From Phallus indusiatus (lineage: Eukaryota > Basidiomycota > Agaricomycetes > Phallales > Phallaceae), in NCBI GenBank assembly GCA_027605045.1, contig JAQFWX010000009.1:1116001-1180000 (forward strand): DNA of 64,000 bases, read 5' to 3'. A model generated the notes under the pieces. The model was not told the origin of the DNA. It searched no databases and worked only from the letters and a program-made list of their open reading frames with translations. Made by a program: the position numbers and the translations under genes. Shown here piece after piece: positions 7,197 to 60,687 of this stretch. Each line of letters opens with the position of its first letter. The stretch's first letter is position 1.

Positions 7197-10100
7197 TTAC
7201 GGAGTGAGGGGTTTTATGCTTGATGAATATCTTAGTAAAAGGGCTCTGAAGAATGTGAGATTTGTGAAACAACGTACGTCAGTCGCATGAGTACGATCTT
7301 CAGTATCATTGACCTTGTCTGACCCCACATTTTCAGCAATGAGTTGCCCGAACTCAGGCACGGTTCTCTTTAATGCAGAAAGAGCTCTGTTTGCGAGATC
7401 TTCAGGGGACCAAAGTCTGCGAGGTAAGTGTACCAAGTCGTCAGATTGCGCTATTCCATTCATAAGGCCAAATAACTCGTCCAACGTATGCCTGTCAACC
7501 TTTGATTCTACAAGCAGGAAATACCTTTTCGTATCCCAATTGGAAAACACGATCAGTTTCCATAGTGACTCAAGCACGGAGGGGCTGTAAAGAATGGTGA
7601 ACAACCGGGGATTCCTCGGACTCACAGACTTGAGGAGATTCATTAAGACTTCATATACTCTCACTTCCTTATAGATGCATTCAAAATTCGTCAAGTTATA
7701 GAGACATCTTGAGATGTGCGATACTGCATCCGGATCATCCAAGAGGATTGTGGATAGATAGTTGCGGTTCTGGGGCACAAGCAGTAGCCCGAACAGGGGG
7801 GGTGTGACACGTGAGAGGCTTGGATCGAGATCTCGTGAATACCATTGATATATGAGAGAGAGGTCGTGACGGTCCGCGAAATTCAAGTGGTTATCTAATG
7901 GAATGTTCATCCAAGAATATACTTCGAACAGACACTTCATTGCGCTCTCTCTGGTGTCATCCGTCATGAACTCGCACCAAAATGAGCCTACGCAGCAGAT
8001 CTCTTTGAAGTAAGTGAAGCAGTACTCGGCATTCTCCGATGTGTGAGGTCGTTCCGAGGAATTAACGAACCACGAAAAGAATGAAAACATAATAAAGAAG
8101 GAGTCTTGTCTATGAGTTTTGTCGGTGATGAGTGGATGACTGGAGGTGAGGTTGCGATAAATGGTAACAAGAAGGAGATAGCGCGTTTCATAAGTTTTGG
8201 CTTCCGATGAATAGTCTGGGTTGCCCAGTTTAAAGTACCGGAACAGGCATTCAAACTTCCACCATCCCAGTTCTTCACTATTAAACCGTACTAACCCCGC
8301 GTTACGTATAGGTTGATGAGTGGGATTGAATTTCCAATTGAATATACCCCGAGGTCCACAGGCGAGTATATCCTTAGCGTCGGTATCATCAAATAACGAT
8401 GACGCCTTTTCGAAGAGAAAACACCACATGGACAGTGGAAGTCTAAGATCGTTAATAATGGCCTTAATGAGAGTGATTGGCTCCTCGTTGTTCCGAACCC
8501 CGATGGCCTGAATCTGAAGATAGCTCTGATACTCTCGTTCCTCCAGCTGACTTTGTAACACATCGGGAATGTACTGGAGTAGGTTCCAGCATGTTGTATT
8601 ACGAGCTACGAGATCCAGACACAAGCCATAACGGAAGTCTATGACATCGGTTTCACTGATTTTTAAAATATTACGAAGATTCACGAGATCATTCGTATCA
8701 AATCGTCCGCTGATGAATGGATGCACAGCTACTGATCGTGCAATAACTCGATGAACACTTTGGTCCGAGGAAGTCGCATGGAGCCAACAGACCGCATCGA
8801 CGTCAAGGAATGCTGCATTTTTGACAACTTTTTTAATGTTCTCTTCTCTCCACTTTGTGAGTTTTGGCAAGTTGGATCGGAGTCTCTGAAAACCATGGCG
8901 TATCACATCAGCTAACTTTGCAATGAAAATGAATCCATGTTGGACGAGGTCTCGGGGGTAGTGAATGAGATGCCTAGCAGTACGTCCAGATTCAAATTGT
9001 ATTTTTCTAGAAAGAGTTTGAAACTCCCTTTTAGGATTGTGATGATATTTTGAGAGACTTGTCGCAAACACACCTGAGAAACCCGGTGTACTTTGTGAGT
9101 TTCGGCAAGTTTCCAGAAAATATATTGGATCGGAGTTTCTGAAAACCATGGCGCACAGGACCAGCTAACTTTGCAATGAACATGAATCCACGTTGGACGA
9201 AGCCCCGGAGGTAATGAATAAGACCCCCGATAGTATGCCGAGCTTTAAAACGTATTTTTCTCGAAAGAGCTTGAAAGCCCCAATTTAGGATCGTGATGAT
9301 ATTTCGAGAAACTTGTCGAAGAACAAGGTAGAGAAATCCGGCGTACATCGTCAACGAGCTTGTATACGGGCACTCCGCGTACCAAATAGGTAGCATCACC
9401 GAAATGAAATATAACGTATAAGCGATGCTGGTGATAATGAGAATCGTCCAAGCAACACGGACGTCCAATGGAAACAGTAGTATAATGTTTCCCGTAAGAA
9501 ATAAGCCCACAGCAAGGTGGAGTAGGATGGGGAGAATGTCGATGATCACTGGAACCTTCCACGATTCGAAGCCATTGAGCCGCAATTGTCTCGCTCGAAC
9601 CCTTTCATTCACCGATCCAGGAATAGAAGATAGGTAATAATGAAGCCACTGCTTCGCGATGCTAGCAAATAACGCCGTAGTCAATGTAATCGCCAAACTA
9701 GCGAACCATAGACCATTCACCAAAAGCGTGGTTGTTGACGGTGTAAATGGCGACGTCGGTGTCAGCGTTGAACTAGGTACCTGGCTTGCCGGTACTCCAG
9801 TGAAATTAGCCCGTAATAACTGAACTGCTTCAGATAGAAGAGATGCAGAAACTTGAGTATTATCTTGCTGCAGACTTTGTGAGGCTTGTGAGATGAATGT
9901 TGTTATAACGCCAGAAAAGAGACCAGCCTGATAGATCAATATAAGCTTGAATAGCATGGTTACGGATAATGTTCTGCGTACAAAAACGAGAAGTACATCC
10001 ACTGTGTCTTTCCACCTTTCTGCTCTCTCATGATCAAACGATTCAGCTTCGTCGAGGTATGTCAACCAAATGCGAGAATTTTCGGCAACCTCCTCCCCAG

Positions 10101-10648
10101 GTCGATCTCGTGGATACTTTTGTTCGTAATCATATTTATTTGTGTTTGCTAATGTTTCAAGTTAGACTGAGCACTGAGGATCAAAATCGCCACACTTACG
10201 GCCAGTTTCTTGAGAAAAACCTTTGTTTAGTCCGAAAAGCTTTTTGCGCCATTCTTTGTTTTGCTGCTCATTGCTATGAGCAGAACCTGAAACTCCTTTG
10301 TTAGGCGTCTCTAAAATGTACCTAGGTGAGCAATTTTCATATAATGTTTTTGTGGAACAGAGACTTACGAAGGAAATCGCGGAAAAGGCTCACCAAATTC
10401 TCTATTGTTTCATCAGCTTGTGGACCTGTCGCTGGCACGGCACCAGGGAGTTTGCTTTCTCTGTGTGAAGAAGCAGGGAGTTCGCTTTCTATGTCTGAAG
10501 GGCTCGAGGCTGGCACGCTTATGGATGGATACTCGAGATTTTCTCTTTGGTTATCAGGGCCTTCCCGGGACATTCCAGAACGTTCGCTACCTTCTTTACG
10601 AGTCTCGACGTGTGCTGCTTGTTCATTCAAACTAAGTGTTTCCGACAT
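7197..10648 (-). CDS. DUF6535 domain membrane protein (full length, 5 exons)
   Basis: Exons 10648-10369, 10310-10200, 10148-9982, 9927-9074 and 9027-7197 join in frame to 1080 residues. Residues 1-125 are polar. The DUF6535 core follows (YLDEAESFDHERAERWKDTV, GLFSGVITTFISQ), then hydrophobic helices (NGLWFASLAITLTTALFAS, VIIDILPILLHLAVGLFLTG, TILIITSIAYTLYFISVMLP), then a soluble C-terminal region of about 600 residues with no motif I know. DUF6535 proteins are common multicopy agaricomycete proteins of unknown function. The last junction uses a 46-nt intron (9073-9028) lying inside an internal duplication; without it a stop follows within 15 codons. The first four exons match the copy at 1-974 exactly in length pattern. 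Confidence 0.85.
8865..9330 (-). repeat. Internal tandem duplication inside the DUF6535 gene
   Basis: About 9085-9330 and 8865-9084 encode the same block twice: FQALSRKIRF...LIHYLRGFVQRGFMFIAKL...VRHGFQKLRSN, then FQTLSRKIQF...LIHYPRDLVQHGFIFIAKL...IRHGFQRLRSN. At the join the second unit has two one-base deletions relative to the first, which would shift the frame. The predicted 46-nt intron at 9073-9028 removes exactly this damaged stretch. Confidence 0.7.
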
Positions 10649-22590: not shown

Positions 22591-22650
22591 TGAGGGAACA
22601 CTCAGCCAAATTTCTCAATAAGCATCTTCACACTTCACCTTCTCTTGAAA

Positions 22651-23804
22651 ATGCCGTCTTCTTTCATAATTCCGGACTTCATCTCCAACTGTCCATACAA
22701 GCTACAAATCCATCCTCGCGGTGACCGTCTCGCAGCATTATCAGAGAATTGGTATCGAAATGCCTTCCCAAATTTCAGTCTCAAACAAGAAAAAAAACTC
22801 AAGATGCTTATGGCTGGAAAGGTTTGCGCATTTGTGTACATCGACACAGACGACGAAAGTTTTCAACGAAGTTGCGACCTCATGCACTTGATCATATATT
22901 ACGGAGACGTTACGGACGATCTGGATTTACAGGCCAACAAAGCAATGGCAGACCTTATGATGAATGCGTTTGCGTTACCAAAAGAACCGAAGGGTTCGGT
23001 TGAACTTCCGTTGCACAAATTGACGCGACAGTACGTTGATTTACTTTGCGTGACCGGGCGGACAAACTGGACAGCATCCTAACGCCGTGTTCATTTATGA
23101 TAGATTCTGGAACCAGTGCCTTCCTAATGCCTCCCTCGGTTTTCTGACTCGATTCATTGAAAACATGGGATTGTTTCTAGAAGCAAGATATACCCAAGCC
23201 ATTCACCGACAGGATAATATAATACCAGACATCGAGGAATACATCGAAATAAGAAGAGATAGCAGCGCCTTCAAACCGCTATTTGATTTCCTGGAGTATA
23301 CCCTTCATGCTGACTTTCCAAACGAAGTCATGGAACATCCCATAGTACAATCCTTGAAGGAATGCGCCAACGACTTTTGCACTTGGGGCAACGTATGTAA
23401 ACATTTTATCTGTTTGGACAGGAGGAATATGACTTACGAATGCTTAGGACGTTTATTCCTATAACAAGGAACAAGCCCGCGAAGATACCTACAATCTTGT
23501 CGTCCTTTTCATGAGACAATATAACATGGGGCTTCAAGAGGCTATCAACGCGGTGGGAGACAAGTGTTTCGACACTTTAGACAAATTCGAGATGCAGAAG
23601 AAGCAATTGCCGTCATGGGGAAGTCAAATTGACAGGGACCTTAGACGATATATTAAAGGCTTAGAAAACTATATGATCGCATGTTTGGAGTGGGGATACA
23701 TGTCGAGTCGATACTTTGGAGAAGAGGGTTTGAAGATTAGAAAGACGCGCGTGGTCAAGCTGTTGCCTCAACGGAAGGAAAACACCAAAACTTCGTGTTA
23801 TTGA
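22651..23804 (+). CDS. Terpene synthase (class I, sesquiterpene-cyclase type)
   Basis: Three exons (22651-23030, 23104-23392, 23448-23804) give 341 residues, the usual length of basidiomycete sesquiterpene synthases. The metal-binding NSE motif NDVYSYNKE is complete and is split by the second intron exactly between N and D; AREDTYNL follows, as in the family. The first acidic motif is unusual: CDLMHLIIYYGDVTDDLD, where relatives typically have D(E/N)xxD, so the first Asp may be Gly. RRDSSAFKPLFDFLEYTL and the C-terminal SSRYF region also fit. These enzymes ionise and cyclise farnesyl diphosphate using Mg2+. No P450 or other clear pathway gene lies beside it; the nearest genes are the F-box relic and a transposon-like element. 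Confidence 0.88.
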
Positions 23805-23910
23805 TAACCAAAGGACCTTATACTATTGTTTTGTATTAGACATAAAAATTAACTTATAATTATTTTCATACCCGATACGCACCTTAATACTACTGTACTA
23901 AAAAAAAATT

Positions 23911-24231
23911 GTCACAAAAACCCGGAGGGGTTTATAAACCAACCCGAGTTTATAAACCTTTATAAACTCAATGCAATGTTAATTTGTATTTATATTTCAA
24001 TTTCACAATGCATTTTATTCCCTGTGCAATTTATTTTCGGGTCCTTTCTCCAATAAATGTCCTGCAGCTTCGCCTAAGCTATGATCGGGTAAAACTCATT
24101 CATCGGCTAATCGCTAATCGTTTCCGTAGCATGAAAAAAGAGGATGGTCTGTGCGCAAGATCAAGTTTTATATAAACTCGGGACTTGGTTAAATTTTCAA
24201 GTCGCCCTTGTTGCCTCGATTAGTAGTCTTC

Positions 24232-24266
<35 letters not shown>

Positions 24267-24613
24267 TTACTGGTATCAGTATTATTATTATTATTATTAG
24301 TTGTAGTAGCACTAATAGCAGTAGTAATAGTAGTAGTTTAATAGGTAGTGTACTACTTGTATCGGACTATGTACATCTGTATCTCAATAATATAATATTT
24401 TTATAACTACTTTAACATGTGATTCGAGATTAAAGAAAGTCAAGTTCCAAAAAAAACATAATCAAGGCGACGTTGTATTGAAAAACTTGTTGATCTAGTT
24501 TATATAGCTTTATAAAAGCTTTGAATTTTTTTCTAATGGTTTATAAACTTCCTCGACGTTTACGTTTTTTTTGGGTTTATAAAGGTTTATAAACCTCTCC
24601 AGGTTTTTGTGAC
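23911..24613. mobile_element. 703-bp element with 30-bp terminal inverted repeats
   Basis: Left end 23911-23940 (gtcacaaaaacccggagggg plus tttataaacc) and right end 24584-24613 are reverse complements at 28 of 30 positions. Sub-terminal tttataaa motifs occur several times on both sides. The inside has no transposase, only a trinucleotide repeat, so this is a MITE-like non-autonomous element or a deleted DNA transposon. No clear target duplication could be read (flanks aatt and taat). Confidence 0.7.
24228..24345 (+). repeat. Degenerate (GTA)n/(TTA)n trinucleotide repeat
   Basis: A run of gta/tag units, first pure and then mixed with tta, sits inside the TIR element. The plus-strand poly-valine ORF over it is an artefact of the repeat. 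Confidence 0.85.
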
Positions 24614-25263
24614 TAATACTGGATACATGATTGCTCCTATTCACCACCTGTATCTGAGAATGGTTCGGAAGTTGATAAATGTATCAGAACCCAAGTTTCT
24701 CATCACCCATTCTCGACATAGCTCGCTTCATTAATGGCGCTGCTAAACACCGCCAGATTCCAATCATGGCGCCCAGAATTCTTCGGCACCAGCGAATCCC
24801 CTAAATGCCACGGCATTCAATTTCTGAAGTTCGGCTGCCAGTTGGATTTTAAACTTTGAATTTACATAATTCCCTTAAAAATTTCTCGTCATTTAAGGCA
24901 TTTGAGGCTGACCAAATTTCAATAAAAAAATAATATGTGAAATCGTATAAATTATTACCTTTCCCTCTGCAGTACCATCCTGAAGCTAAAATCTGGAGAT
25001 GAAACTGAGTTTGAAGATACGTAGATAATTCGGTATAAAATAATATTCCATGAGTTTAATTCAGTGAAACAAATATCATAGTTTACGTATGTAGCGATTT
25101 TTGTACTTCGTCTATATAATAATAACGGTGAAATTTATCGAACAAATATCGATCAAGACCGGAGTTCAAAACCGAAAAATCGTGTTCCAAGGTAACAGGC
25201 TCCAAAGATGTACTGCTCGTTCATAATCAGCTGGTAGGCGAACTAGAGCCGTCATCGATTCAT
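24614..25263. other. No clear gene
   Basis: AT-rich sequence between the TIR element and the micro-exon gene. A 43-codon ORF at about 24735-24866 (MALLNTARFQSWRPEFFGTS) reads protein-like but has no support. Confidence 0.3.
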
Positions 25264-26039
25264 CTACCTATCCACAGGACTTATAATAAGGTACATATAT
25301 GCTTGTCCAATGACACTCAAGTTTCGGGGTATAAGAAAACCTGGAACCAAGTAACTCGACGAGACAAGTCCAGGAGTATTAACAGTGACGAGTGCTCACT
25401 GAACGCGCTTGTCATTAGGTCGTCTGACATGAATACGAGGCGAGCACTTACAAAAATTAAATCTTACAAATAGAATGAGATCAGTAGCCAGAATCGGTGG
25501 ACGAAACCCGACACTCACTAGTGACTGGTATATAAGAGTTAAATTTAGTACAAAAGTCTGAAATTGGAGCCACGCATTTAATCAATGGCTTTACTTACCG
25601 AATTCCTCAACTAGATGGGAATATGATTAGATTAACATAATGGTTATTACAGGAATCTTAGACTTACGACCTGAAGCTAGAGAAACGCCATCGGGAGCTA
25701 AGTGCTTTTTAGAAAGTAGCTCCTTTATTTTTCACGATACTCACTTCGTTCGGAAACTAAAACATATCATGAGAAATAGAGGCAGTCACCAAAACAAGAG
25801 AAAATACCATGTGATGAAAGGTCTTGTAATAGGATATGAGTCATGAACGAACGTTGAACACTAAGCACGATCAGCCTCAATTACTCACCATTGTGAGGAA
25901 CTAGGAAATTGGATGATAGATTCATCAAGAAGGTATTACAAAATCAGAACGGGGAAAAATTACCTGGGTAAGCGGTAACAGAGACCGACATCATGAAGAG
26001 AAAAGTAGCGAGAAAGGAAATCTTAGTAGTGAATTGCAT
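25264..26039 (-). CDS. Secreted protein gene made of micro-exons (novel, 9 exons)
   Basis: The ATG at 26039 opens a clear signal peptide (MQFTTKISFLATFLFMMSVS, then VTAYP). The rest is cut into tiny exons: 25900-25889 (12 nt), 25822-25808 (15), 25756-25745 (12), 25697-25668 (30), 25610-25599 (12), 25557-25519 (39), 25423-25400 (24), and a last exon 25340-25264 ending TAG. All internal exons are multiples of three and every junction is phase 1; the product is about 98 residues with one Cys. Six GTRAGT donors fall in 440 bases on this strand, where about 0.2 are expected by chance. One donor (gtattt, 25807) and the last exons are weaker. No known family. A CT-rich leader and a tatttaat motif lie upstream. 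Phase-1 modular exons could allow peptide variants by skipping. Confidence 0.55.
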
Positions 26040-28614
26040 TTTTGTCGAGATTACGGGAATTTAATGTTTGAGAAAATGGGATAATAGAACTGGATGGTGA
26101 AGATGAGAGCTGAAGTGGATTATTGGATGTAGATTAAATACCTTTTGGTTGCATAACTTGAATGTACGTCCGAGTACTCGCGGAAATTGGCACCGCCCCT
26201 CAGCCTGGTTCGAGTGTCATGAGAACATAGAACTTCACAACACTCGCGCTTTGTGATGTTCCTCAGAAAAAAAAAGCCCTGAGCCAGACAATGAAGTAGG
26301 GATTCAATAGGTAACATCAGTCCCCTGGTTCTACCAACTATGGGAACTATGTCTATTTCCAGTTCAGTTATAGAGCGATGGCCCAGATACCCCTTCTGTT
26401 ATTTCGCACGGAACTGTCATCATCCCAGGCAGCTGGAGCAAATACGTGATCCATGCAAACAAGGAAATAAGCAGGGTGCAATATCCATATTTTGGAGGGA
26501 CACCAGCGCCGAAAAGATGCCGTGTGATTGACTTGAGAACGGACCTGTGTAGGACAGGGAGGCGCTCTCTCAGGATGCAGATTGACTGCTTGGTACCTGC
26601 TTATAATTATCTAACTTCCTTTATGTAAGTATACAATAGTTCATACTTACGACAAAAATTTCGAATTATTATGTGCTTTGGGCGGAGAGATGACTAGTGG
26701 GATCGCGGGAAGTTGTGCTAATCCGTTAAGGACCGGGCTGAAGGCCCATCAATAGGAACTTCTGAAGGGAACGGCGCATTGCGCGGCAGTGTGGGGTATC
26801 ATAAATTGTTGGGGTCTATATTTAGGTGTGGAAGACGGGGTTGAGACAAGCTTGAAAGGTTTTTTACATTATGCATGTGGAAAAAAGGAGTCAAGTTAGG
26901 AAAAAAAGGTTGGACGAATCTAGCCTTACCAGAAGCCCTTCGCCATTTCACGCGGCACTTGATCGGTAGTAAGGCTGTAGGAGTACGCCATCCTTACGCC
27001 CACTTTCACCCCAAGTCAAGAATTTAAAAATTAATGTCTCCCAGATATCACTGAGATATACCACGGGGCGATGTTTTGAGTCTTTGTCAAGGCAGTAATA
27101 AAAATTCTATCATTAGTCACAAACCATGAAAACTGTTGGATAGGGATGAATTTTCATTACAAATTTTGAGATGTTATCTAAAAACACCAACTTCTGCGTG
27201 ATGCGTCGTATTTCGCTGTCCTATCCAAGCTGAAGATCAAAAACAATATCAGTACCTATCATTCTAAGTATGAGCTTCATCGAATAGAGACCTAACCCTT
27301 ACTATTGACTGGTGCCAGCGCTGGGTGATGCTCGGTGCATCGCCCAGCCCCGGCACCGTAAATTGTCGCTACCGCCCACACGGACAGTATCAGGTCGCAA
27401 CAAGCCATGCCATCTTCGGTACCGAGATATCAGCCACAATACCTTTGCTTTGTCAAGTAGATCACACCAAATGTGGCAACTACAATGGAGTATTATGCTA
27501 AGCTGTCCACGTTCTATGTTTTAACAACAATACGGCGACATCGATGACCCACCAATTGTCGAATAATTTTAACGATCGGGACTAAGGAATTTTGGACTGC
27601 TAGCAATCCCATGACGTTTATGTTTACTCATTCATTTATAACCTAAACCTTTAATTGTAAGATTACCTGGGGTTGCCTAATTAATCGCCCTGAATTATTT
27701 TTTCAGGAATTGTGTACCGACTCGAAGTTTTGACATGACAACTCTACAATTCAAAACCCTTTTTTGAAACATAGGCAGCAACTTTTTTAGATAAGAGCTC
27801 GGGACTTGGAAAACCCTGTCAGCTAATAGGAAATTGTACGGCTATCGAGTTCTATCACATAATTTCAATCCACTATTCCCAAGAATTGTTATTAAGATGA
27901 AGTTCTGTAGTATGTCATCTCGGCTGTATCCATCGCAGTAATGAGTCGATACTAATCAAGTTGTCCATTTTATAGCAGAAAAGGCCTTTGGTCGCCCAAA
28001 ATCTCTTTGTAAAAAGAAGACGAACCGCCTTCAGTAGTTTGCCTAATAGATATTCTTCCTTTGTATATTTTACCCACGATAACATCCACAATACACAACC
28101 GATTTGAGAGATTATAAACAACCTCAAAACATACCAGGCAATGTGACCGAGAATAAACGGCTATCCGAGGGGTTTTATCTCAAAGTAGCCGAGGAGCCGA
28201 GCGGACTTAACCTGACGGCAATTACCGACCACACCGTCACTTTTTTCACAACGTTGCTCCAGAAAAAAAAACAAAGAACAACCCTCAGCACGAATAGTGT
28301 CGTGTCGTTTTTCCATCCATTTGAAAATGCGTAAGTTCATAAATTCACCACCAACATGCTTTTCTGATTCAACTCGATATGTATTGCGATGTCCCCTTTT
28401 TCTAGCCTCGGAGATAGCACTTTTTTAGGACAACGAAAAATGCAGGTTTCCCCATGGAGGCTAATAGGACTCTTCTTCGGATGGGGCAAAGTCTATAATA
28501 TAAAAACCCGGACCCGCATGGCCGTTTCGCTCTGGTTTCACCGTGTCAATCGACCACAGTACTTGCTTTTATATTGACCAACAGCTACCATTAGCCAGTC
28601 TTCTCTTCAAAGCC
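26040..28614. other. Long stretch with one uncertain ORF
   Basis: No recognised gene. On the plus strand about 26374-26628, after a possible acceptor (gttatag), reads SDGPDTPSVISHGTVIIPGS then WSKYVIHANKEISRVQYPYF, which looks protein-like but could not be joined to other exons. A hairpin lies at 27311-27357. A possible TATA (tataatataaaa, about 28493-28504) sits about 110 bp before the Sulfotransfer_4 gene. Confidence 0.3.
27311..27357. repeat. Imperfect 21-bp inverted repeat (hairpin)
   Basis: Arms ggtgccagcgctgggtgatgc-like and its complement pair at 18 of 21 positions around a 5-nt loop; several mismatches would be G-U in RNA. GC-rich in an AT-rich background. No flanking direct repeat was found. 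Confidence 0.6.
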
Positions 28615-29582
28615 ATGTCCATCAAGCCCAAAGTTATTTGTCTCGGGTTGGGTCGTACAGGGGTACGTTTGGCGCCGTTTTGTTTCATTCCATCTGTTTT
28701 TTTTCTTTTTTGACTGATTTCTGCGAATAAAGACCATAAGTATGTTGACTGCTCTGGAACAATTAGGGTTTGGGCCGTGTTATCATATGAGGGTCATCGT
28801 TAATAGAAGAGATGTAAATGAGATCAAGATGTGGTACGATCTTGGTCAAGGTACTTGGTTTTATTTCGGGCTCGCATATGATATTAATATATGATGTTGT
28901 TCAGGCTCAGCTTCACTTGACGATCTACGGGAGGTGTTGAAAGATTTCAACTCTTTCCTGGATTTTCCTGTAGCCCTTAATTGTGATAAGATGTACGAAG
29001 CATATCCCGACGCGAAGTTCATTCTGGTACGTTTTATTATTATTGTTAAACAAGATAATAGAAGCATTGACTGTCATTTCAAAGTCGACTAGGGATCCCG
29101 CCAAATGGGCGAAAAGCATGGAAGATACGCTAGTACCAGTAGTCACCGGCCATAGGGACATGCCCAATCCCACACCTTTTTTAAGTATGTTAAATAAGTT
29201 CTATGCCGTCGAAATAGAAGGTGAGCATTATCTGCCTATCCATCAACAAGTATGCTTTTGACTAAGGAGATCTCCATCTTCCGCGTTCAAATAAATAGGC
29301 AAATTATTCGGCGATTTACAAGGAGCAATGATAGCGCACAATCAACGCGTAAGAGAGCTTATTCCGGCCGATAAACTACTCGAATACGACGTCAGCCAAG
29401 GATGGGATCCATTAGTTCGCTTTCTCGGAGTGTATGCTTTCACTTCGGTTTCTTCATTCCGGGGACATAAAGAGCTGACTCGCGAGAACAGGGAAAAACC
29501 AGATACCCCGTTTCCTCACCTGAATACGACGGAGATGTTTCACGAGGAAGTGAAGAGATTTGTGGACACTCAGCCACACTGA
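28615..29582 (+). CDS. Sulfotransfer_4 P-loop protein, copy 1
   Basis: Six exons join in frame from the ATG at 28615 to TGA at 29580-29582. The N-terminal P-loop reads KPKVICLGLGRTGT, split by the first intron at the same place as in the copy at 44571. Family hallmarks follow: TALEQLGFGPCYHM, YEAYPDAKFIL, STRDPAKWAKSM, LLEYDVSQGWDPLVRFLGV and EKPDTPFPHLN. This is the PAPS-binding-like sulfotransferase family common in basidiomycetes; the substrate is unknown, and members are often annotated only as P-loop proteins. The cofactor loop (GRTGT) and RDPxKW motif are intact. Two decayed relatives lie downstream on the same strand (29910-30250 and 31495-31655). Confidence 0.85.
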
Positions 29583-32407: not shown

Positions 32408-34263
32408 ATGGAACCCACTGTTCCCAGCGTCGATGCCAGTAACACCGCCGTCCCGATGATCAACAACAGCGAAAATGTCTCTGGATCCATTGTTGACCAA
32501 ACAGAAACAGTCACCGACACGAAACCTTATTTCACCAACAAGGACGAACTACGACAATCACGGCCCGACGACCAGAACAACTCCGATGACGACAATGACT
32601 GGTTATCCTCCGATGCCAACCCTTTGCTATGGACAACAACCCGAAAATGGAAGAGCCTTTTAGCAGCGAGCCTATACACATTCGTAAGGTAAGAACTCCA
32701 ACTCATTATAACTTTCCTCGATGGTGGCTAACCAAGTACTAATAGCCCCTTGGCGTCGAGTATGATGGCTCCAGCCCTTCCTGAAATCGCAGCCCACTAC
32801 CACATCACCAATCCAACCATCATCGCCCTCACACTCAGCATCTACCTCCTCGCCTACTCCCTCGGCCCACTCGTCATCTCCCCACTCTCAGAAATATACG
32901 GCCGCGTATGGGTCCTCCACATCTCCAACATCATTTTTCTCCTCTTTTGCATTGGTTGCATATTCGCTCCAAACACGGCTGCATTGATTGTCTTTCGTTT
33001 TTTAGCTGGAATAGGGGGATCGACACCGGTGGCTATAGGTGGAAGTGTTATCGGCGACGTCTTTGTCGGAGAACAGCGTGGGACTGCTATGTCAATCTAC
33101 AGTATTGGTCCGCTCGTCGGTCCGGGTCTAGGCCCAGTCATAGGTACGCGTTGTCTCCCCCATTTTCAATATTTTTTTCCATAATACCTAACCTTCCAGA
33201 ATTCATATTACTTTAAGGTGGCTTCATCGTACAAACCATCGGCTTTAAATGGATTTTTATTCTCCTCACTCTTCTCGGCGCGGCAGCTTCCGTTATCGGT
33301 ATACTCCTTTTAGAAGAAACCTACCATCCAATCTTGAAAGCTCGATATATCGAGTCAAAAAGAAGAAGAAGCGCAGAAGACATCGAAAACTCGGGATCCG
33401 AAAAGACATCCGTGGTAACGAAACCTGAACCCCAACAACAAAAATCAGCTTCTGAAACGCTTTTCACCAACTTATCCCGTCCCTTCGTTCTTTTGACGCG
33501 TAGCTTGATTTGCTTCATGTTATCCCTATACATGGCCTTGTACGTGTGACTACTATTTATCGCATGTATGCATTTCTGAAAAAAATCCTACATGATAGGA
33601 TTTACGGATACCTCTATCTCATGTTCACAACTTTCCCGGATCTATTCAGTTCAATATACGGCTGGAGCCCCGGAATATCAGGTCTAGCATACTTAGGCAC
33701 AGCAGTCGGATTCATCATTGCCACTCTCACCGGCGCAAAAATGCTATCCAAAACATATCTAACAGTAAGTACATACAATACATTACATCCGAAAACAAAC
33801 AATTCAATTCAACCCAACTCAATTCAATTCTTAGTTGACGGAACGAAACAACGGCATCCCCAAACCCGAATTCCGAATCCCAGTCATGTTCATAGGCTCA
33901 CTCCTAGTCCCCATAGGTCTATTCTGGTACGGCTGGTCCGCCGAAGCAAAACTAACCTGGATCATGCCCATCATCGGTACTGCCATATTCGGAGCCGGTC
34001 AAATGTTCGTTTTTATCCCTCTCCAACTCTACCTCGTCGACTCGTTCTCCTATTCCGCTTCCGCACTAGGAGCGGCAGCCGTTCTTCGTTCTCTTTTTGG
34101 ATTCGGTTTTCCACTTTTTGGAGAGCAGATGTTTCAGAAACTTGGGTTTGGTGGTGGAAATTCGTTGTTGGCCGGTTTGGCTATTCTGACCGGTATACCA
34201 TTTCCTGTGTTTTTATGGTATAGAGGGGAGCAAGTCAGATTGAGAAATCCTCTAAATCGATGA
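32408..34263 (+). CDS. MFS drug:proton antiporter, DHA1 type
   Basis: Five exons (32408-32688, 32746-33143, 33218-33539, 33599-33764, 33835-34263) give 531 residues. A polar, acidic N-terminus of about 85 residues precedes 12 helices. Family marks include PLASSMMAPALPEIAAHY, the LSIYLLAYSLGPLVISPLSE then IYGR loop (MFS motif A), RFLAGIGGSTPVAIGG, and the antiporter motif C region YSIGPLVGPGLGPVIGG. A basic central loop follows LLLEETYHP. It is related to fungal polyamine and multidrug exporters; the substrate is not determinable. All splice junctions close in frame. It is convergent with the second MCT-type transporter (gene ends 76 bp apart). Confidence 0.9.
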
Positions 34264-48021: not shown

Positions 48022-49524
48022 TTAGATCCGCCGCTGCTTTTCCATCGGGAACCCATTTGGACCAGTTGGTATAGGCGGCAAAGGTGGCATGGTCTGCATT
48101 TGCTGCTGCTCCCTCCATGTAGGAATATAAGCAGCATACGGAGGTGGTCCAGTTCTTGTGCTCCCTACGTCATCATCCATCGTTCTACGCGAGCTCGACG
48201 GCGTCTGCACTTGCGCCTCCGAATCAACTTGTGATTGGGTATCAATAGTTTGCTCAGACCTCATACTCGAGGCTGGCAAGGGTGGTAAAGGCATCGGTGG
48301 CGGGGGTGACGTCGGTGGCAAGTTCTGAATGTGAAGTTGCTGTTTGCCGCTAGACGATGCCGACGGTGACGGTAGAAGAGGACTAGCTACAGATGTGGCG
48401 GTAGATATACCGGATATAGATTGAGCAGGGTGGATGGATGAGTTGCGAGGGGTTGTGTAGGCGTGTGAATGCGCAGACCGGGAGATGGAAGGCATGGGCG
48501 TATGGTTGGTGGTATTGACGTGATGGGTATATGTATTGTGGCTTTGTGTGCTATACACACTCTTCTCATACCCACCAGGTGTGCTATTGATAGTTTCCAT
48601 GGACATGCGCGGACCAACAGAAACCGAGTGTGGTACGCTAGGTACTCCTCGTGGGGACGGCAAAGGCGGGAACCTGTGGGTACTAGGTGTTGCAAGTGGC
48701 GTTGCAAACGGCGATATGCTGCTTATTTCTGAGCGTGCATCCGATCGTGAGTTTGAATCCGCTTCTGTGAAGGCCCAGGACCCATCAGGGCGGCGATGGG
48801 CTATACGGAGGAGACCGGCCGTACTGCTCATGGCCGCTGTTTGTTTGGCGAAGAAAAAAGAAAAGACGAAGGCGTAAGTTTGCAACTTTGAGATTTGGAA
48901 TAAGCATTCAACGCACATGAGTTAGAACTAAGCGAATGTGACGTCGCAATGTGTTCTAAATGTCTAAAGTCCATTGGAGTAGACGGAAGAGGGATTTGAC
49001 CCTGGGGATATTGGTGATGTAGGTGATAATTTGGATGGTACAAGCCCTGGGCCTTGTTGCGAAGCTCTTGGTTCTTGTGATACATCCTGAATAGGATGAG
49101 TACGAATCCTTGAATGAAAAGCGTCCCAAAAATGCCCAACACAACGCCTATCAAAAGGGGTTGTGGGACGGTGGAGTCGCATGTGTCAGCTCGAGAAACG
49201 AGTAGAGAGCGTTTTCTGTTGCTCGCTGAGTATTTTGATCGCCCAATGCGTATTCTTTGAAGACTTACCTTCCAGCAACTTGAGGTGTTGGGCGCACACG
49301 CACGCGATCCATCTCCCACTCGCTGAAAATCATTGAAACATTCGTCAACACTTGGAACGAGAAAAATGCTTGTGGAAAAGGAGCTCTTACAATTGGGAAG
49401 CTGGGAAACGTCGGTTATTTGTCGATGGCAATTCGGGATGTGGGTGTTGCAGAGTTAATGAGAATACGTCCATGGTAAGCCAACTCAGAACTAAAACCAA
49501 AGGCAACGCCTGAGGAAACTTCAT
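48022..49524 (-). CDS. Single-pass membrane protein with Pro/Ser-rich cytoplasmic tail
   Basis: Exons 49524-49391, 49322-49269, 49215-48917 and 48836-48022 join in frame to 433 residues. A signal peptide (MKFPQALPLVLVLSWLTMDV) opens it. A short outer part of about 65 residues follows (FEWEMDRVRVRPTPQVAGRK, then DTCDSTVPQ), then one membrane helix (LLIGVVLGIFGTLFIQGFVL). The tail is long and rich in Ser, Pro, His and Thr, ending PPLPPIPTGPNGFPMEKQ; polyproline runs could bind SH3 or WW domains. The layout resembles fungal wall-sensor or adaptor-like membrane proteins, but no named family is recognised. Part of its 5' half is copied at 53955-54170 beside a repeat gene. Confidence 0.7.
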
Positions 49525-51173
49525 TGTCGTAAAGGAATGTGGAGATATAACGAGAGGCAAGACGAGAAAGAGAACGGTTCGGAAGAGGAAGAGGAATAAG
49601 GGGGAAGGGGGAGGACGAGGGGGATCAAGGAGGACGAGGGAAAGATGAGATGAAGACGTGGAGGGAGATGCCCGGGCTGGAAGACAGACAGACGCCTTTG
49701 CCCCTTGCACGCTTAGGGTTTGATTAGCTAATGAACACAAGTGTGACAACGTTGATGTCACACCTGGACTCTGCAGGGCCGCCGAAAGTTGCGCCGAGGC
49801 CTTGTTTATTTTATTGGGAGAACTTGGGATCAGACTCAAAGACTGACATGTGAAGAATTCTCTGCGTACTTTACGTGAAACATTACAAGCTGAGGTTCTT
49901 AAAAAAATTGGTTCTTTTCCGAAGCCTTTGCACATTCAAATTTCGATGCACCCTCAAACTTCTCCAGTTCTAGTTTTTCTTACTGTTGATGATGATGATG
50001 ATGGATATGACGATATTTATATATATACCTATAGACGCTTGACCCAGAAAATATATGGCACTTGAACCCTTTTGAACAAAGTCTCCTTGCCGACGCCCAC
50101 TGTTTTTAATTCGTCCGATTGGATAGACGAGTGACACCTTCTATTTTTTTTCCCATTTCAACTGCTTAACGCCTCAGTCGTGAATTTCAATTTCGTTGAA
50201 TTCATTGCGCTCAAATCCCGAGACGGGGGAGCTAGTGCATCGACTCCAAAAAAGAATCAATCGCTTGTAATGATTTGAATCTAAGCGAACCTCTGAAATA
50301 ATTCATCAACATTCCTTTTTTGGCCTATTGTCCGAGTGCCTTCAAAAAAAAATACAAGCACGAAGTAACGCCGGAACATCCAATACTCCTCTACGCGCTT
50401 TTTCACGCTTTGTGTTTGTCCTTTCCTTTCAATGATGCCAAATATACTTCGATGAAACGGAGTTCACGGATGAGCGACGAGGCAAACATTGATATGGCCT
50501 CGCGTCTCCGAGGGTTGTTAGCTAGATCTTGGCGATCGCAGCGCGCGCCGAGCCCTTGAACCAGCTGCAGCTGCTGCGCTTGTAATGATCAAATTATTCA
50601 AGAGAGCTACAAGCGCGAAGCCTTCATCGCAATCCGCCTCGAATGAAAAACCAATTACTTACGTGGTTGCAAGTGCTACCTGCAGCCTGACATGGGCAAC
50701 GTTATAAAGCCATAAAGCCCACCCCTTGATTGGAATCTCTAGCGGCTGTGGGTTATTCTATCGTAATTATTCAATTGGTCAACTGATTCAACTTCCCCGA
50801 ATCTAAAGGCTACTAGGCAAGAATCAATATACTGATGAAATACGCCTGAACAGTAACTGAAGTATACTCAGGCTTTTGAGAATTTGCTCAAAAATCTTCC
50901 AGGCTGCGACTTGCGCTCGAAACTTGTCCTAACTTCCACTCCGACCTTTGGGTTGTATATTGAGTTTTGCCCCTTTTTTCCGGCCTCCCATACCTTCAAT
51001 CTAGACAAAAAAGCAACCCGCGGGCTTTAGCAGACTCTGGCTGTATTAGTAGGGGTCCTGACGCCAGTAGTCACACTGTGACCTGCTGATGCCGGGGACG
51101 CGAATATGACCGAACAAAAAGTTCCTCTTTTTTTTTTTTTTAATCACCACCATCACCGTTGACAATTTCTGCC
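49525..51173. other. Intergenic between the membrane protein gene and gene A1
   Basis: This includes the membrane gene's promoter. A (gat)n run lies at 49987-50002. Parts of this stretch are repeated at 54170-55117 (with gaps) and at 62630-62760, so it belongs to the duplicated unit. The ORF at 50320-50559 is not kept in the copy and is probably not coding. Confidence 0.5.
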
Positions 51174-51591
51174 ATGGTATGTCGTTCTATTTGGTTACAC
51201 GTTCAATTTATTTTTATATGATTCAGGCTTATGTCAAAGGATACGTTTGTGACTATGCAAAGATACAGCGTCACCTTAAGATCGCGGACGACGACAAGGA
51301 TCTAAACGGAAAGATAGATGACTGTGTTACGAAAATATTGGAATTCATCGACCGAGACACCAATCCGACCTGCTTGGGGATACCTCTTGGTACAGATGGG
51401 AGGAAGGTCGTTATAGTGACAGCCGAAGGAGATGATCCAGCATCGGCAGATTCGTGGAAGGAGACAGAGCCCTCGTATCTAAGGAAGCTAGCTGAACACG
51501 TGCTTTCCGGTCCACACATTCTGAAGAGGGGTATGTTTATTGACATTTATTAAATCCAGTCTCATTGATCTTGGTATTTCCAGCGGACTGA
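51174..51591 (+). CDS. Gene A1: 104-aa protein of unknown family
   Basis: Exon 1 contributes only the start codon (51174-51176, directly followed by gtatgt). Exon 2 is 51227-51530 and exon 3 (51584-51591) adds only Ala-Asp-stop. The product begins MAYVKGYVCDYAKIQ and includes KIDDCVTKILEFIDRDTNPT, CLGIPLGTDGRKVVIVTAEG and ETEPSYLRKLAEHVLSGPHI. It is acidic with no signal peptide or helix for a membrane. No family known to me. The same three-exon structure is kept in copies at 53531, 55118 and 60271. It is followed by gene B1. Confidence 0.7.
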
Positions 51592-52339
51592 AGCCTTCCG
51601 ATACTGGCATTCTGCTCAGAGAGTGTTTTTGGTATTCAAGCCTTACAGGTTGAAACAGTAGTGATACGAAGGGGGAATGCTTCTGAAATACGCGTGTGGT
51701 AGTATATAAGCGTTGTGCTACTCGGAGTCGTCTAATGCATATCTGTTAGAGTCCACATCTTTTCTTGTCCTCATTGTTTCAATTTGTTTGTCCTCACCCA
51801 TTTGTCCTCATTCTATGCCCCTAGCTTGATGATGATGATGATGATTAATTAAGTTCATTTTCTATATGGTTGTCCCCGTTGCCCCCGGTCTGATAATGTA
51901 CAGTATAATCTAAGTGGATCCATATACATAACATAACCCATATACATAACATAACGACTGTACATACTAAAACATCTGTTCCCTTTTCCGGGAGGCCGCC
52001 AGTCTGTCGGAAAGGTGCTACAGTAATGGGGATTTGAAAATGAATGATGAGGCTGGTGTCCAGTGTCTTGTTCTTACTCATTTGTTCTTCGTGACTCTCC
52101 GGGTGTATGCGGTGTTTCAGGTTGCAAGCTTCATCGATGGGTTTCTTGAAGTTTCTATATCAGTCTGTATCTCTAGGTATCTCTCTGTGCAAGGGAATAT
52201 CCCTGGCTTACATTATTGTCCCTGCATATTTTGTATTTAATCCTCACCTCTCGTTCGAACTCATATGTAAGCATCTTTTTCCAACTCAGAAATAGTATAT
52301 ATTGAGCGGTGTACTCATTGTCCTTAACTCCCATACCTC
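51592..52339. other. Spacer between genes A1 and B1
   Basis: The same spacer sequence follows A3 and A4 (blocks such as gatacgaagggggaatgctt and catactaaaacatctgttcc). It holds a (gat)n run at 51829-51845. No gene. Confidence 0.55.
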
Positions 52340-53057
52340 ATGTCATATTCACTGGTACGTCGTTCGTCCCCTTTGACACCTCCTTCATCGCTTGATCGAC
52401 CTTGAACGTAGGACCAGAATGCGTTCATGCATCTAAACAATCTTGCTTTAGCCTCAGTACAGAAGGGGACGGATGAAAGTGATTGTTACGCTGTCTTCAC
52501 AGAGATGCTCATCGAACACAGAGTCACTCATAACCGCCTCTTTATCTTATTTCCGCAGCTCCGCCTTTCCTGGAAACCTGACATGGGCATAGGACGCCTC
52601 ATCCACGGTAGCAAACGTCTCCAGGGTGGGGTCGAGCAGAAGGCTGCGATCGAAATCATGCAAAACTTGCCAAGTCCTGCCACCATCATTGATCACCTCT
52701 ACGTGCGCGAGGCTTTTCAAAGTATTGTGATTCAAAGTGAAAGCTGCAATTAAGAACGGTGCACTACCATGTGACACTTCTACCAAGTGGATACTAGCAG
52801 TGGGACCATACTTCACTTTTCGGAAGTTTGGTCCATTCAACGAAGTACACCTTGCTACTAGAGGTCATCGACCAAATGACAGCGGGGACGCGGCTGTAGC
52901 GGATTTTGTAGAAGGCTTAGAGGCCACGACTCGTACCAGACCAATCCCCGGACCATTATATCGCATTGGAACTCCAGATGTTGCCTCCGCTATGCATGCA
53001 TATCTCTTTTCCCCTGAGGCCATGAAATTATACACCTCCACAAATCGTATTATGTAA
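52340..53057 (+). pseudogene. Gene B1: broken copy of an unknown 235-240 aa protein
   Basis: Exon 1 is five codons (MSYSL, 52340-52354); a 55-nt intron leads to DQNAFMHLNNLALASVQKGT. The frame matches B2 (61820-62584) until about 52735, where a net 8-base deletion after FQSIVIQ puts the rest (VKAAIKNGALPCDTSTKWIL onward, to 53057) in another frame. It also lacks 33 bases present in B2. The second half is still open and similar, so the break may be recent. Confidence 0.7.
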
Positions 53058-53530
53058 ATGACTTGATGTTGATAGAAATGTTTTTTATCTTCTACTTCCG
53101 TTGATCACTCGCTATGTTTTCTTTTTATTGGTTGATCACTTAGACATACATATATGACTGCTACTCTGTATAAGCTCCTGCTTAGTGTGTAACATTGAAG
53201 CCATTTTACTGCGCTGCTACATAGTGCACACAGGCCCCCCTGTTAAGCCTATAATTGTAAGCTAAAGCCAAATTCTGGCCTTGCGGATCAACATAGAGGT
53301 AACCGGAATAAAGCCTAGTATTTGTTGATGACAAGGTTGTATAGGGAAGATCATAATCAAATTACTGTCCGGTACTCACTACTCAGTCCGAGTCATTTGT
53401 GGCTTGCTCGCCGGGAGAGTGGGAGTCTGTGACGCTAACAAGTCACAGTTTGGCGTATAGTTCTCTTTATTAAATCACCAGCACACTTTCGCCATTCTAA
53501 TGCTAATACTAGTGAAAGACAACTGGTGCG
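53058..53530. other. No gene seen
   Basis: Spacer between B1 and A2 with no coding signal. Confidence 0.45.
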
Positions 53531-53954
53531 ATGGTATGTTATTCTACTTGATTTACATGAATTTCTTCTTATATGACTCAGTCTTATGTTAAAGGATACA
53601 TTTTTGATCATGCAAAGATTCAGCATTTGCTTCAGATTATCAGATAGCGGACGATGATAAAGAAAAAAACGGCAAAATCGATGATTGTGTTACGAAAACT
53701 TTGCATTTCATTGACCGGGACACTAATCCGATCTGCTTGGGAATACCACTTGGTACGAATGACAGGAGAGTCGTTATCATAACAGCCGAGGGTGATGATC
53801 CAGCGTCGGCAGGGTCGTGGAAGGAGACAGAGCCCTCGTATCTGAAGAAACTAGCTGAACACCTGTTTTCCGGCCCACATATCCTAGAGAGGGGTATGTT
53901 TATTGACATTTAATGAACTCAGCCTCATTGATCTTCGTATTTCCAGCCGATTGA
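53531..53954 (+). pseudogene. Gene A2: copy of gene A broken by an 8-base insertion
   Basis: ATG at 53531-53533, intron, then SYVKGYIFDHAKIQHLLQ. An extra attatcag at about 53632-53641 shifts the frame into a stop. Downstream the frame is intact (IADDDKEKNGKIDDCVTKTL to ERG) with the usual last exon CCGATTGA at 53947-53954. It is closest to A4 (shared KEKNGKIDDC). A foreign segment joins a few bases after the stop codon. Confidence 0.75.
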
Positions 53955-54170
53955 ATACTGGGACAGTCGAGTCGCATGTATCGGTTCGAGAAACGAGTAG
54001 AAAGCGTTTGCTGTTACTCACTGAGTATTTTGATCGTCGAAAGTGTGTTCTTTTTGAAGATTGACCTTCCAGCGACTTGAGGTGTTGGGCACACATGCAC
54101 GCGATCTATCTTCCACTCGCTGAAAATTATTGGAACATTCGTCAGTGGGATGACAAATGCTGTGAAAAGA
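53955..54170 (-). pseudogene. Fragment of the membrane protein gene (48022-49524)
   Basis: This matches about 49165-49380 of the intact gene, including the exon 2 text SEWKIDRVHVCPTPQVAGR (parent EWEMDRVRVRPTPQVAGR) and its flanking introns, with substitutions and small indels. It has no promoter, signal peptide or tail. It was carried here as part of the segmental duplication and is fused a few bases past gene A2's stop. Confidence 0.75.
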
Positions 54171-55117
54171 AAGTGGGAAGTTAGGAAACACCGGTGATTT
54201 GCTTCACGCTTTGTGCTTGTTCTCCCTTTCATATTCATATTCAAATGATACCAAAAATATTTTCTCCATAGATTAGACGGATTCCACTGATGAGCGAGGT
54301 GAATAAACATATATAATCATACGGTCTTGTCACTCTGAGGGCTATTAGCTAAGTCACGGTAGATCTTCGCAATCGCAATGCTGAGCCCTTCTAACCAATG
54401 CGCTTGTAATGACCTGTTCAAGAGAAATACAAGCGCTAAGTTCTCATCGCAAAATACCATCCCTGCTCGAAATTTAGTTGAAGCATTTTGAAGGTTACCG
54501 GTTACGCGTTACGGTGGTTACAGTGTCCCAGCGCGCCGCATTGCGAGCAACGCCATGAACCAGCATGGACCCGTCCCCTGATTGAGAATCTCTGGCGACC
54601 GCAGGTAGTCTATCATTAATTATTCCACTCGATCAATGTACTGATGAAGTACACATGAACTATATAAACTGAAGTATATCCTGCGGCGTAACGGGTTGTT
54701 ATTTGAGAATCCCTACAGAGGCCGGATTTTTTCCTTTTTTTGAGTCAAACTTTGTCCAATTGTACTCAGTCCGGCGTTAAGCTAGGGGGATGAGTTTGCC
54801 CATTTTCTCGACCTCCTATACCTCGAATTTTAACCGGACGCGCTAGGAGAGTAAATGAAATGCACATACAGTTTGTGCGACACCTATACATAATGTATCC
54901 GAACGGCGAACCCAAACTCTTCGTTAGCTACAAGTCCAACATTACTCTTTCTCCACAGACCCAGGATCTCGACAGTAAAAACCACAACATCCGGGCTCTA
55001 CCAGCTTTCCCTTACTTGTGGTTGTGTGACCTGCTGATACAGTCACGCTAGCGTAAAGTTCCTCTTTCCTGCACCTCCACCACCATTGCTTATTGCTGTT
55101 GTTTTGATACAAGTGCC
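54171..55117. other. Duplicated spacer, no gene
   Basis: A diverged copy of 49525-51173. A segment at 54835-54985 reappears at 62745-62870. Confidence 0.5.
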
Positions 55118-55535
55118 ACGGTATGTCGTTCTATTTAGTTTTGCGTTCAATTTATCTTTATATGACCCAGGCTTATGTCAAAGGATACGTTTGTGACTAT
55201 GCAAAAATTCAGCGTTTCCTTGAGATCGCAGACGACGACAAGGATATAGTCGGCAAGATAGATGATTGTGTTACGAAAATCTTGGAATTCATCGACCGAG
55301 ACACCAATCCGACCTGCTTGGGGATACCTCTTGGTACGGATGACAGGAAGGTCGTTATAGTGACAGCCGAAGGTGATGATCCAGCATCGGCAGGGTCGCG
55401 GAAGGGGACAGAGCCCTCGTATCTGAAGAAGCTAGCTGAAAACGTACTTTCCGGTCCATACATCTTGAAGAGGGGTATGTTCATTGACATTTAATAAACC
55501 CAACCTCATTGATCTTCGTATTTCCAGCCGACTGA
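55118..55535 (+). CDS. Gene A3: copy of gene A with ACG in place of the start ATG
   Basis: Exons 55171-55474 and 55528-55535 are intact and end in Ala-Asp-stop. The codon joined to exon 2 is ACG (55118-55120), directly before gtatgt, where A1, A2 and A4 have ATG. The exon 2 frame is fully open (AYVKGYVCDYAKIQRFLEIA). It may be silent, use the near-cognate ACG, or use another start upstream. It is closest to A1. Confidence 0.6.
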
Positions 55536-55984
55536 AGCCTTCCGATACTGGCATTCTGCTCAGCCAGAATTTGTGGTTTTCAAACCTTAGGGTTGAAACA
55601 GTAGTGATACGAAGGGGGAATGCTTCTGAAATACGCGTGTGGTAGTATGGGAACTAGCTCTACTCGAAGCCGTCTAATGCGTGCCTGTCAGAGTCCACGT
55701 CCTTTCTTATTGTGTTTTCATCTTTGTTTACCCGGACATTGTCCTTACTCGTTTGTCCTCATTCTATGCCCTTAGCTTGATGATGATGGTTAATGAAGTT
55801 CATTTTCCATACGGTTGACTCCGTTGCCCCCGGCCAGATAATGTAAATACAGTATAATCTAAGTGGGATTATATACGTAACATAACGGTACATACTAAAA
55901 CATCTGTTCCCTTTGCCGGGACGCCGTCAGTCCGTCAGAAAAGTGCTAATAAGGGTTTGGAAGCGAATGGTGAAATTGGTGTCT
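55536..55984. other. A-gene downstream spacer
   Basis: The same spacer as after A1 and A4, cut at about 55985 by the LINE fragment. Confidence 0.5.
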
Positions 55985-56545
55985 AGCAACTCGGCATTTG
56001 TAGAAGTTCCAAGGAACAACGCGAACGAACTCGGGACCGGCTTTGCCGACGATGTCGCCTTCCTTACAGCAGCCAAAACCTTCCATGCGGCGAATAAGAA
56101 ACTGAAATGAATGTTCGACGGACCACAGGGGGCTCAAGAATGGGCAGACACACACAGCTCCACTTTCGAATTGACGAAGCTCAAACTAGTAGGTTTCACA
56201 AGCAGTCCATACGACGACCAAAGCTCACCCTGCGGAACCAGGAGGTGTACGCAACAACAACAGTCAAGTACCTAGGCATCATACTCGATCAGGAACTCAG
56301 ATTCAAGGAACACCAAGCCCACGCTTACTTGAAAAGTTTGGATTGGGCCAAGCAACTACGACGAATAACACGAGTTAAATATGGCACAGCCCCAACATAC
56401 TTCAAAAGACTCTACAAAGCTGTTGTCATCCCTAGGGTCCTCTATGCGGCCAGCGTATGGTGTCAACCAGTGCACAGAAAACCCAACGCCAAGCGACTTA
56501 CGGGTTCAGTTGGTTTCGCCAGGAAACTAGAGCGTATGTATAACA
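55985..56545 (+). mobile_element. 5'-truncated, decayed non-LTR retrotransposon (reverse transcriptase part)
   Basis: The frame reads NELGTGFADDVAFLTAAKTF (the FADD catalytic box of LINE reverse transcriptases). After frame shifts it reads GPQGAQEWADTHSSTFELTK, then TVKYLGIILDQELRFKEHQA, YFKRLYKAVVIPRVLYAASV and GSVGFARKLERM. This is the order seen in fungal LINEs. Several stops and shifts show it is dead. It interrupts the spacer downstream of gene A3. Confidence 0.75.
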
Positions 56546-60270: not shown

Positions 60271-60687
60271 ATGGTATGTTGTTCTACTTAATTTACGCGA
60301 ATTTTTTCTTTATATGTTCCAGTCTTATGTCAAAGGATACATTTTTGACCATGCAAAAATTCAGCGTCTCCTTAAGATCGCGGACGATGACAAAGAAAAA
60401 AACGGCAAGATCGATGATTGTGTTATAAAAACCTTGGATTTCATTGACCGAGACACTAATCCGATCTGCTTGGGGATACCACTTGGTACGAATGACAGGA
60501 GAGTCGTTATCATAACAGCCGAAGGTGATGATCCAGCGTCGGCAGGGTCGTGGAAGGAGACAGAGCCCTCGTATCTGAAAAAGCTAGCTGAACACCTGTT
60601 TTCTGGTCCACACATTTTAGAGAGGGGTAAGTTCATTGACATTTAATAAACTCAGCTTCATTGCTCTTCGTATTTCCAGCCGATTGA
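60271..60687 (+). CDS. Gene A4: intact copy of gene A (104 aa)
   Basis: Start codon exon 60271-60273, intron, exon 60323-60626, intron, exon 60680-60687 (Ala-Asp-stop). Product M-SYVKGYIFDHAKIQRLLK then IADDDKEKNGKIDDC, LGIPLGTNDRRVVIITAEGD and ETEPSYLKKLAEHLFSGPHI. All splice signals are standard. It lies between hydrolase 1 and gene B2 on the same strand. The family is unknown; the acidic, soluble character is shared by all copies. The frame is conserved across copies that differ by many substitutions, which supports coding. Confidence 0.75.

Follow-up and report, generated by a model that had tools for sequence, protein, structure and literature searches.

Micro-exon genes (MEGs) of schistosomes are said to have been set out by DeMarco et al. 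in 2010. As described in two papers, these genes encode secreted proteins, consist mostly of very small symmetrical exons and have fast-evolving mature parts, in the sense that the dN/dS of the mature part lies above that of the signal peptide (PMC4350168, PMC10526429); the second also records that automatic annotation had trouble with them. In basidiomycetes, small exons coding for fewer than 10 residues are presented as frequent and as an annotation problem in the Laccaria annotation report (PMC2897884), and in Trichoderma the gene of the transcription factor Xlr2 carries a microexon, functional microexons being stated as undescribed earlier in filamentous fungi (PMC11121469). In this study, we have explored a locus of the mushroom Phallus indusiatus within a window of 64,000 nucleotides (the whole stretch of DNA analysed, C195:1116001-1180000), in which an earlier note had proposed a putative secreted-peptide gene of symmetric phase-1 micro-exons. 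Four copies in the genome and several controls give this core claim good support. Our best explanation, which we hold to be highly probable, is a nuclear gene of the ordinary kind that occurs at three loci and encodes a putative secreted peptide precursor assembled from phase-1 micro-exons in a chain. In agreement with the earlier remark that none was known, the literature searched, which had most subscription journals outside it, yielded no description of a micro-exon secreted gene family in mushrooms.

The genome searched comprises 67.2 Mb in 206 contigs, and a DNA search of it returned three further copies beside the window's own: L002, on the same contig (C195:1081357), on the opposite strand and about 60 kb away (84% in the DNA search), L003 (C140:3190977; 79%) and L004 (C166:146220; 79%). 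Protein searches with exon 1 led to the same four places, and family counts from the genome search are lower bounds (at least four copies). The segments around L003 and L004 are 96% alike over 15 kb; these two copies are probably alleles, so that we count three loci and not four. Together with the mirrored matches of a second contig pair, C78/C138, the C140/C166 pair suggests that the assembly contains both haplotypes of some regions; for the peptide locus of the window, the genome DNA search gave no such second haplotype. The gene belongs to a duplicated block (25322..27738, minus strand) that also takes in about 1.7 kb upstream, is common to C195:1081357 and has a shorter version in C140 and C166; blastn aligns it with the C195 copy at 77% in 2543 columns and with that of C140 at 74% in 2122, and homology between the copies covers the same 1.7 kb or so upstream and about 718 nt counted from the ATG. 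All four copies carry, 81-107 nt before the ATG, the identical 27-nt TATA-like element (26120..26146, minus strand), which occurs at no other place of the genome at up to 3 mismatches. At C111:2434851-2435677 (L025, L032, L033) the upstream block is present without a detectable gene body, and is followed there, some 0.7 kb on, by a reading frame that looks by eye like NmrA or an epimerase.

The surroundings of the copies differ. Open frames of a terpene synthase (Terpene_syn_C_2; 22645-23804, plus strand) adjoin the peptide locus of the window, with fragments of a sulfotransferase (Sulfotransfer_4; 28983-29582, plus strand) and an MFS transporter (32408-34263, plus strand) further on, which could possibly represent a terpenoid gene cluster; the terpene synthase has 95% alike copies on C138 and C78, with further 71% copies there, and none beside the peptide copies. 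In open frames scanned near L002 and near the C140 copy, the Pfam domains are a helicase and AA9 (L002) and Suf (C140). As the neighbour domains differ between these three copies, no cluster function is inferred for the peptide gene. Several other features of the window were recorded. A stretch of about 90 nt at 23909-24000 has 12 further occurrences at 74-100% identity, each on another contig, and is probably a repeat element, and similar 'tttataaacc' motifs lie near 24530-24600. Among the matches listed, 49164-62606 holds several internally repeated segments of 0.2-0.9 kb that are 70-91% alike, and 1-722 is 89% alike to 9736-10447; these could be either duplicated genes or repeats.

All features of the gene model lie on the minus strand. 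The coding part of exon 1 (25964..26039) starts with the ATG at 26039 and runs for 25 codons and one base, ending in phase 1, and it is present in all four copies; it reads as a signal-peptide-like leader where the earlier note had placed a signal peptide, is hydrophobic in all copies and clears a hydropathy filter, the sole signal-peptide criterion applied. It is followed by exon 2 (12 nt, 25889..25900), exon 3 (15 nt, 25808..25822; 21 nt in C140/C166) and exon 4 (12 nt, 25745..25756; 24 nt in C140/C166), each with AG and GT aligned in all four copies despite length differences of 6 nt in exon 3 and 12 nt in exon 4; the splice sites of exon 3 are weak (acceptor CAAG, donor GTATTT). Exon 5 (30 nt, 25668..25697; 24 nt in C140/C166) has aligned acceptors and also a second conserved acceptor in the same phase, giving a 9-nt alternative (25676-25668): a chain search on single copies chose the 30-nt form for the window's copy and the 9-nt form for L002, L003 and L004, and a joint search likewise chose the 9-nt form. 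Exon 6 (12 nt, 25599..25610) is fast-evolving, 7 of its 12 sites differing from L002 and likewise from L003, and exon 7 (at least 6 nt, 25519..25524) has a TACCAG acceptor and, after these 6 nt, a GTGAGT (25518), both aligned in all four copies. Throughout introns 1-6, GT and AG stand in aligned positions and the frame is open in the four copies, every one of these introns is in phase 1 and exons 2-6 are symmetric, as is exon 7 in the same phase if it has 6 nt. Micro-exon sizes in the supported chain go from 6 to 30 nt, and the introns of the window's copy measure 47-74 nt and have mostly strong donors.

The lengths of these exons keep the frame. Where exons differ in length between the window's copy, L002 and L003, the difference is a multiple of three in all 8 pairwise cases, as against 2 of 16 for introns, the pairs being non-independent in both counts. 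Underlying the exon count are four differences, of 3, 6, 12 and 6 nt, one of which falls in an intron if exon 5 is taken in its 9-nt form; codons have been gained or lost among copies in exons 1, 3 and 4, and perhaps 5. Retention of intron 2, 3 or 6 brings a stop within the intron in all four copies, and that of intron 5 an early stop in all four (in L002 just beyond the intron); for intron 1 the stop is found in three of the four copies and for intron 4 in two. Exon 4 ends on a Lys-Arg pair in L003 and L004 and on Glu-Arg in both C195 copies, so that a processing site at this point is not common to all copies.

Seven internal exons had been listed in the earlier note; those of 12, 15, 12, 30 (or 9) and 12 nt stand in phase 1 in all four copies, and its exons of 39 and 24 nt and its last exon are unsupported across copies. 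For the 39-nt exon (25557-25519), the nearest equivalents in the other three copies have 31, 32 and 32 nt. The 24-nt exon (25423-25400) has 24 nt in both C195 copies and 20 nt in C140/C166, with C166 lacking its acceptor, and the last exon (stop at 25264) exits the aligned region at about 25322. The TACCAG acceptor of exon 7 lies 33 nt past the start of the 39-nt exon and occupies one column in every copy; with it the exon shrinks to 6 nt (25524-25519). Two main tails remain from this point. In the first, the GTGAGT at 25518 is not used as a donor and exon 7 continues to a TGA at 25483-25481, reading VTSECRVSSTDSGY in the window's copy, GSGECRVSSTDSGY in L002, ATCECQVSSTDTGY in L003 and ATCECRVSSTDTGY in L004. 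In the second, this GTGAGT is the donor of a 6-nt exon 7, a short exon follows up to the GTRAGT at 25451, and the next exon starts with a stop. The possible exon 8 would have 11 nt (25452..25462; 11 or 5 nt in L002, 5 nt in C140/C166), with a conserved donor and an acceptor whose column varies between copies, and the possible exon 9 would open on a stop at 25396..25398 (TGA, TGA, TAA and TAA in the four copies under the spliced model). The first tail amounts to the second with intron 7 retained. By chance, a 200-nt tail would hold at least two GTRAGT with a probability of about 0.005, and the part of exon 7 that varies stops at the 25518 donor; conservation does not separate the two tails, and the chain searches (single-copy, joint and scan) pick differing tails, some of them other than these two. 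On balance we slightly favour the second, with its extra 11-nt exon and stop at 25398, over the stop at 25481. The tail returned by the joint search (exon 25446-25415, TAA) would be a minor option only, since its acceptor, the AG within a GTAAGT, overlaps a conserved donor.

A chance or non-coding pattern, without a spliced coding gene, could be imagined from the failure of protein searches to find a database relative and from introns that are no less conserved than the exons. The introns are in fact as conserved as exon 1, so that overall conservation fails to mark coding exons. Six GTRAGT on the minus strand (25888, 25744, 25667, 25598, 25518 and 25451) lie within 438 nt, which bears out the clustering of donors that had been pointed out earlier: the 64 kb hold 39 such hexamers on this strand (an expectation of 0.27 per 440 nt) and 26 on the plus strand, no other 440-nt stretch of the minus strand starts a cluster of four or more, and the maximum on the plus strand is two. 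Taking the remaining minus strand as Poisson background, one arrives at a probability of about 1.6e-7 for a single such stretch and about 5e-5 over the window. Donor conservation had been named as a check, and within the organism's own genome it holds, with GT at all six sites in every copy and GTRAGT kept at five of the six (25667 is GTCAGT in L002).

The chain itself can be recovered by searches that use our own approximate splice scores, untrained on this genome. Given only the end of exon 1 and these generic scores, the single-copy search returned exons of 12, 15, 12, 30, 12, 6 and 11 nt in the window's copy, with a score of 38.0, a value that 200 dinucleotide shuffles did not approach beyond 23.7; for L003 the score was 34.6, and the shuffles reached 20.2 at most. 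A joint search, constrained to the same alignment columns in three copies, gave 12, 15/15/21, 12/12/24, 9, 12 and 6 nt plus a last exon and scored 29.5. The best of 300 column shuffles (which do not preserve dinucleotides) scored 3.5, and any chain at all was found in 48 of them. Real controls from five stretches of the same aligned block, namely the opposite strand of the gene and, on either strand, two stretches upstream that overlap each other, reached at most 6.2 with one intron, and the gene strand 31.6 with seven. Finally, a structural scan from signal-like ATG exons through the window and 70 kb of other DNA (134 kb, about 0.2% of the genome) placed the window's locus first of 87 anchors with 31.1, followed by the tail of the L002 copy (26.7), the best unrelated anchor (12.2) and a maximum of 10.2 in shuffled DNA; the other gene copies were split between pieces and were not scored whole. 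Shuffles, column shuffles and real control stretches thus yield no such chain, the exon lengths keep the frame, and Rfam over 24500-28500 gave only two matches, both below the gathering score and both upstream of the ATG. All this makes a chance or non-coding origin very improbable. As to the origin of the introns, 2 of 21 intron pairs tested for an introner-like or tandem-copy relation (1-2 and 1-5) exceeded z 2.5 without correction for the 21 tests, and DNA searches of the genome with the locus returned no intron-only places elsewhere.

The copies do not diverge evenly along the gene. Between the window's copy and L002, differing sites number 0 of 39 in exons 2-4, 20 of 42 in exons 5 and 6 and 35 of 331 in introns 1-6 (exons 5 and 6 versus introns, p 4e-8; exons 2-6 together, 20/81, p 0.002). 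Intron 5, which separates the fast exons 5 and 6, shows differences at only 6 of 57 sites. When L003 is compared with the window's copy, the respective counts are 4/39, 18/36 and 53/351 (p 5e-6; exons 2-6 together, 22/75, p 0.007). No exon excess is seen between L002 and L003 (exons 5 and 6, 8/36, versus introns, 49/331, p 0.23; exons 2-6, 12/75, p 0.86), so that the acceleration belongs mainly to the lineage of the window's copy. In the last 9 nt of exon 5 together with exons 6 and 7, replacement and silent changes stand at 14.2:1.8, 11.3:3.7 and 7.0:3.0 in the three comparisons, with silent fractions of 0.29, 0.56 and 0.51 on only about 6 silent sites; the decision to count only those 9 nt of exon 5 came after inspection of the data, and whole-exon figures are given as well for that reason.

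Such a pattern could also arise if the window's copy, or all copies, were decaying or untranslated duplicates, their fast exons being the product of relaxed constraint or of one complex mutation. The confinement of the excess to comparisons with the window's copy, the C111 place that retains upstream sequence with its gene body undetectable and the silent differences of exons 5-7, which are high too (pS 0.29-0.56 on the same few sites), would all fit. Nevertheless, relaxation predicts exons that change at the intron rate (35/331) and not above it (20/42), the intron between the fast exons has changed little, and the frames and splice sites of introns 1-6 are intact in all four copies. We regard decay as unlikely. 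Our best reading of fast exons 5 and 6 is that they may reflect diversifying selection, with a single complex event in one lineage as the alternative.

Because each micro-exon is symmetric, the earlier note had suggested that one locus could secrete many variants by exon skipping. Deliberate skipping of this kind, as proposed for schistosome MEGs, would agree with the phase-1 symmetry of exons 2-6 (and of exon 7 if 6 nt long) in all four copies and with the in-frame tandem acceptors of exon 5. It runs contrary to mushroom data: in Schizophyllum commune, exon skipping makes up 1% of coding-region splicing events and intron retention is the commonest splicing event (PMC5034255), and comparatively low levels of exon skipping in fungi are stated in another paper (PMC6142364). 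Short introns would also favour splicing intron by intron. We thus consider it distinctly unlikely that one gene yields many secreted variants by skipping. The in-frame alternatives visible in the sequence, the tandem acceptors of exon 5 and the retention of intron 7, are both modest, and most of the variety appears to distinguish one gene copy from another, not one splice form from another.

The preferred gene model would work as follows. Exon 1 would supply the signal peptide of a precursor of about 50-70 residues, nearly all of which, after exon 1, would be encoded by the phase-1 micro-exons. The short introns would be recognised singly, by intron definition, in which case exon size would not be limiting and all micro-exons would normally be included. 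With symmetric exons in a single phase, whole codons could be gained or lost, and the last exons could change fast, with the frame intact; exon symmetry may thereby serve the evolution of the peptide more than the mixing of isoforms. The peptide is presumed to be expressed and secreted, and may have an outward-facing role, for example as a signal or effector-like peptide. A bolder and tentative possibility, to which we give about one chance in three, would be that mushrooms have independently evolved a micro-exon secreted family that is largely invisible to annotation, with micro-exons as units of diversification between near-constant introns, last exons under diversifying selection and possibly an in-frame choice of acceptors. 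The trouble of annotation with MEGs (PMC10526429) and with the small exons of basidiomycetes (PMC2897884) suggests that protein databases may lack other fungal peptides of this kind. If expressed, the gene would also offer a clear test case for whether symmetric micro-exons are there for alternative splicing or for peptide evolvability.

Searches for relatives of the peptide have to be read in this light. The four-copy alignment with the first tail gave 283 candidates in protein searches, none at E <= 1 for these short sequences, and the absence of relatives is weak evidence, as gene predictors would miss such a gene. An open reading frame near the gene carries DUF6535, and a control search with this neighbouring protein found mushroom proteins (Armillaria, Desarmillaria, Pterulicium, Lentinula and Mycena), a sign that such proteins are represented in the database. 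The Pfam search with the peptide turned up TRIC alone (E 0.21 and 0.11), which falls short of the cut-off, and no solved structure matched the peptide at E <= 1.

Among known systems, conotoxin-type precursors have a similar stable leader and variable mature part, a likeness by resemblance only. Their cysteine framework is absent here. To our knowledge, conotoxins have no micro-exon chain. Within fungi, the Laccaria and Trichoderma cases resemble the present one in that exons of a few codons are spliced (PMC2897884, PMC11121469), but Xlr2 has one microexon, whereas here a one-phase chain would encode nearly the whole peptide after the leader (PMC11121469). Such a layout is known best from aphids and blood flukes. 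The bicycle genes of aphids share putative secreted products, many small internal exons in one phase and rapid divergence; they differ in their phase 2 and their average of about 17 exons, against phase 1 and 7-9 exons in the mushroom gene, and their CYC motif is absent from the mushroom translations with either tail (PMC9168663). The likeness to schistosome MEGs lies in a signal peptide (here a signal-peptide-like leader), a coding region mostly of very small symmetrical exons, few residues conserved beyond the signal peptide and a fast mature part (here a mature part that may be fast) (PMC4350168, PMC10526429). In architecture, though not by descent, exons 2-6 of 12, 15, 12, 30 and 12 nt, symmetric in phase 1 in all four copies, correspond to the MEG pattern; as to the speed of the mature part, exons 5 and 6 change faster than the introns in both comparisons that involve the window's copy and not between L002 and L003, with some 6 silent sites to count. 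MEG introns of 100 to almost 5000 bp (PMC4350168, PMC10526429) contrast with 47-74 nt here, and the MEGs belong to a fluke, whereas this is a mushroom with only three loci. No sequence relation to MEG proteins was seen at E <= 1, a weak test for sequences this short. In conclusion, our best reading is of a small, lineage-specific family of putative secreted peptides whose micro-exon architecture would be analogous to that of schistosome MEGs and unrelated to them by sequence. If expressed, this fungal secreted-peptide gene, made almost wholly of one-phase micro-exons, would take its place, with no detectable relation to either, alongside the schistosome and aphid cases.
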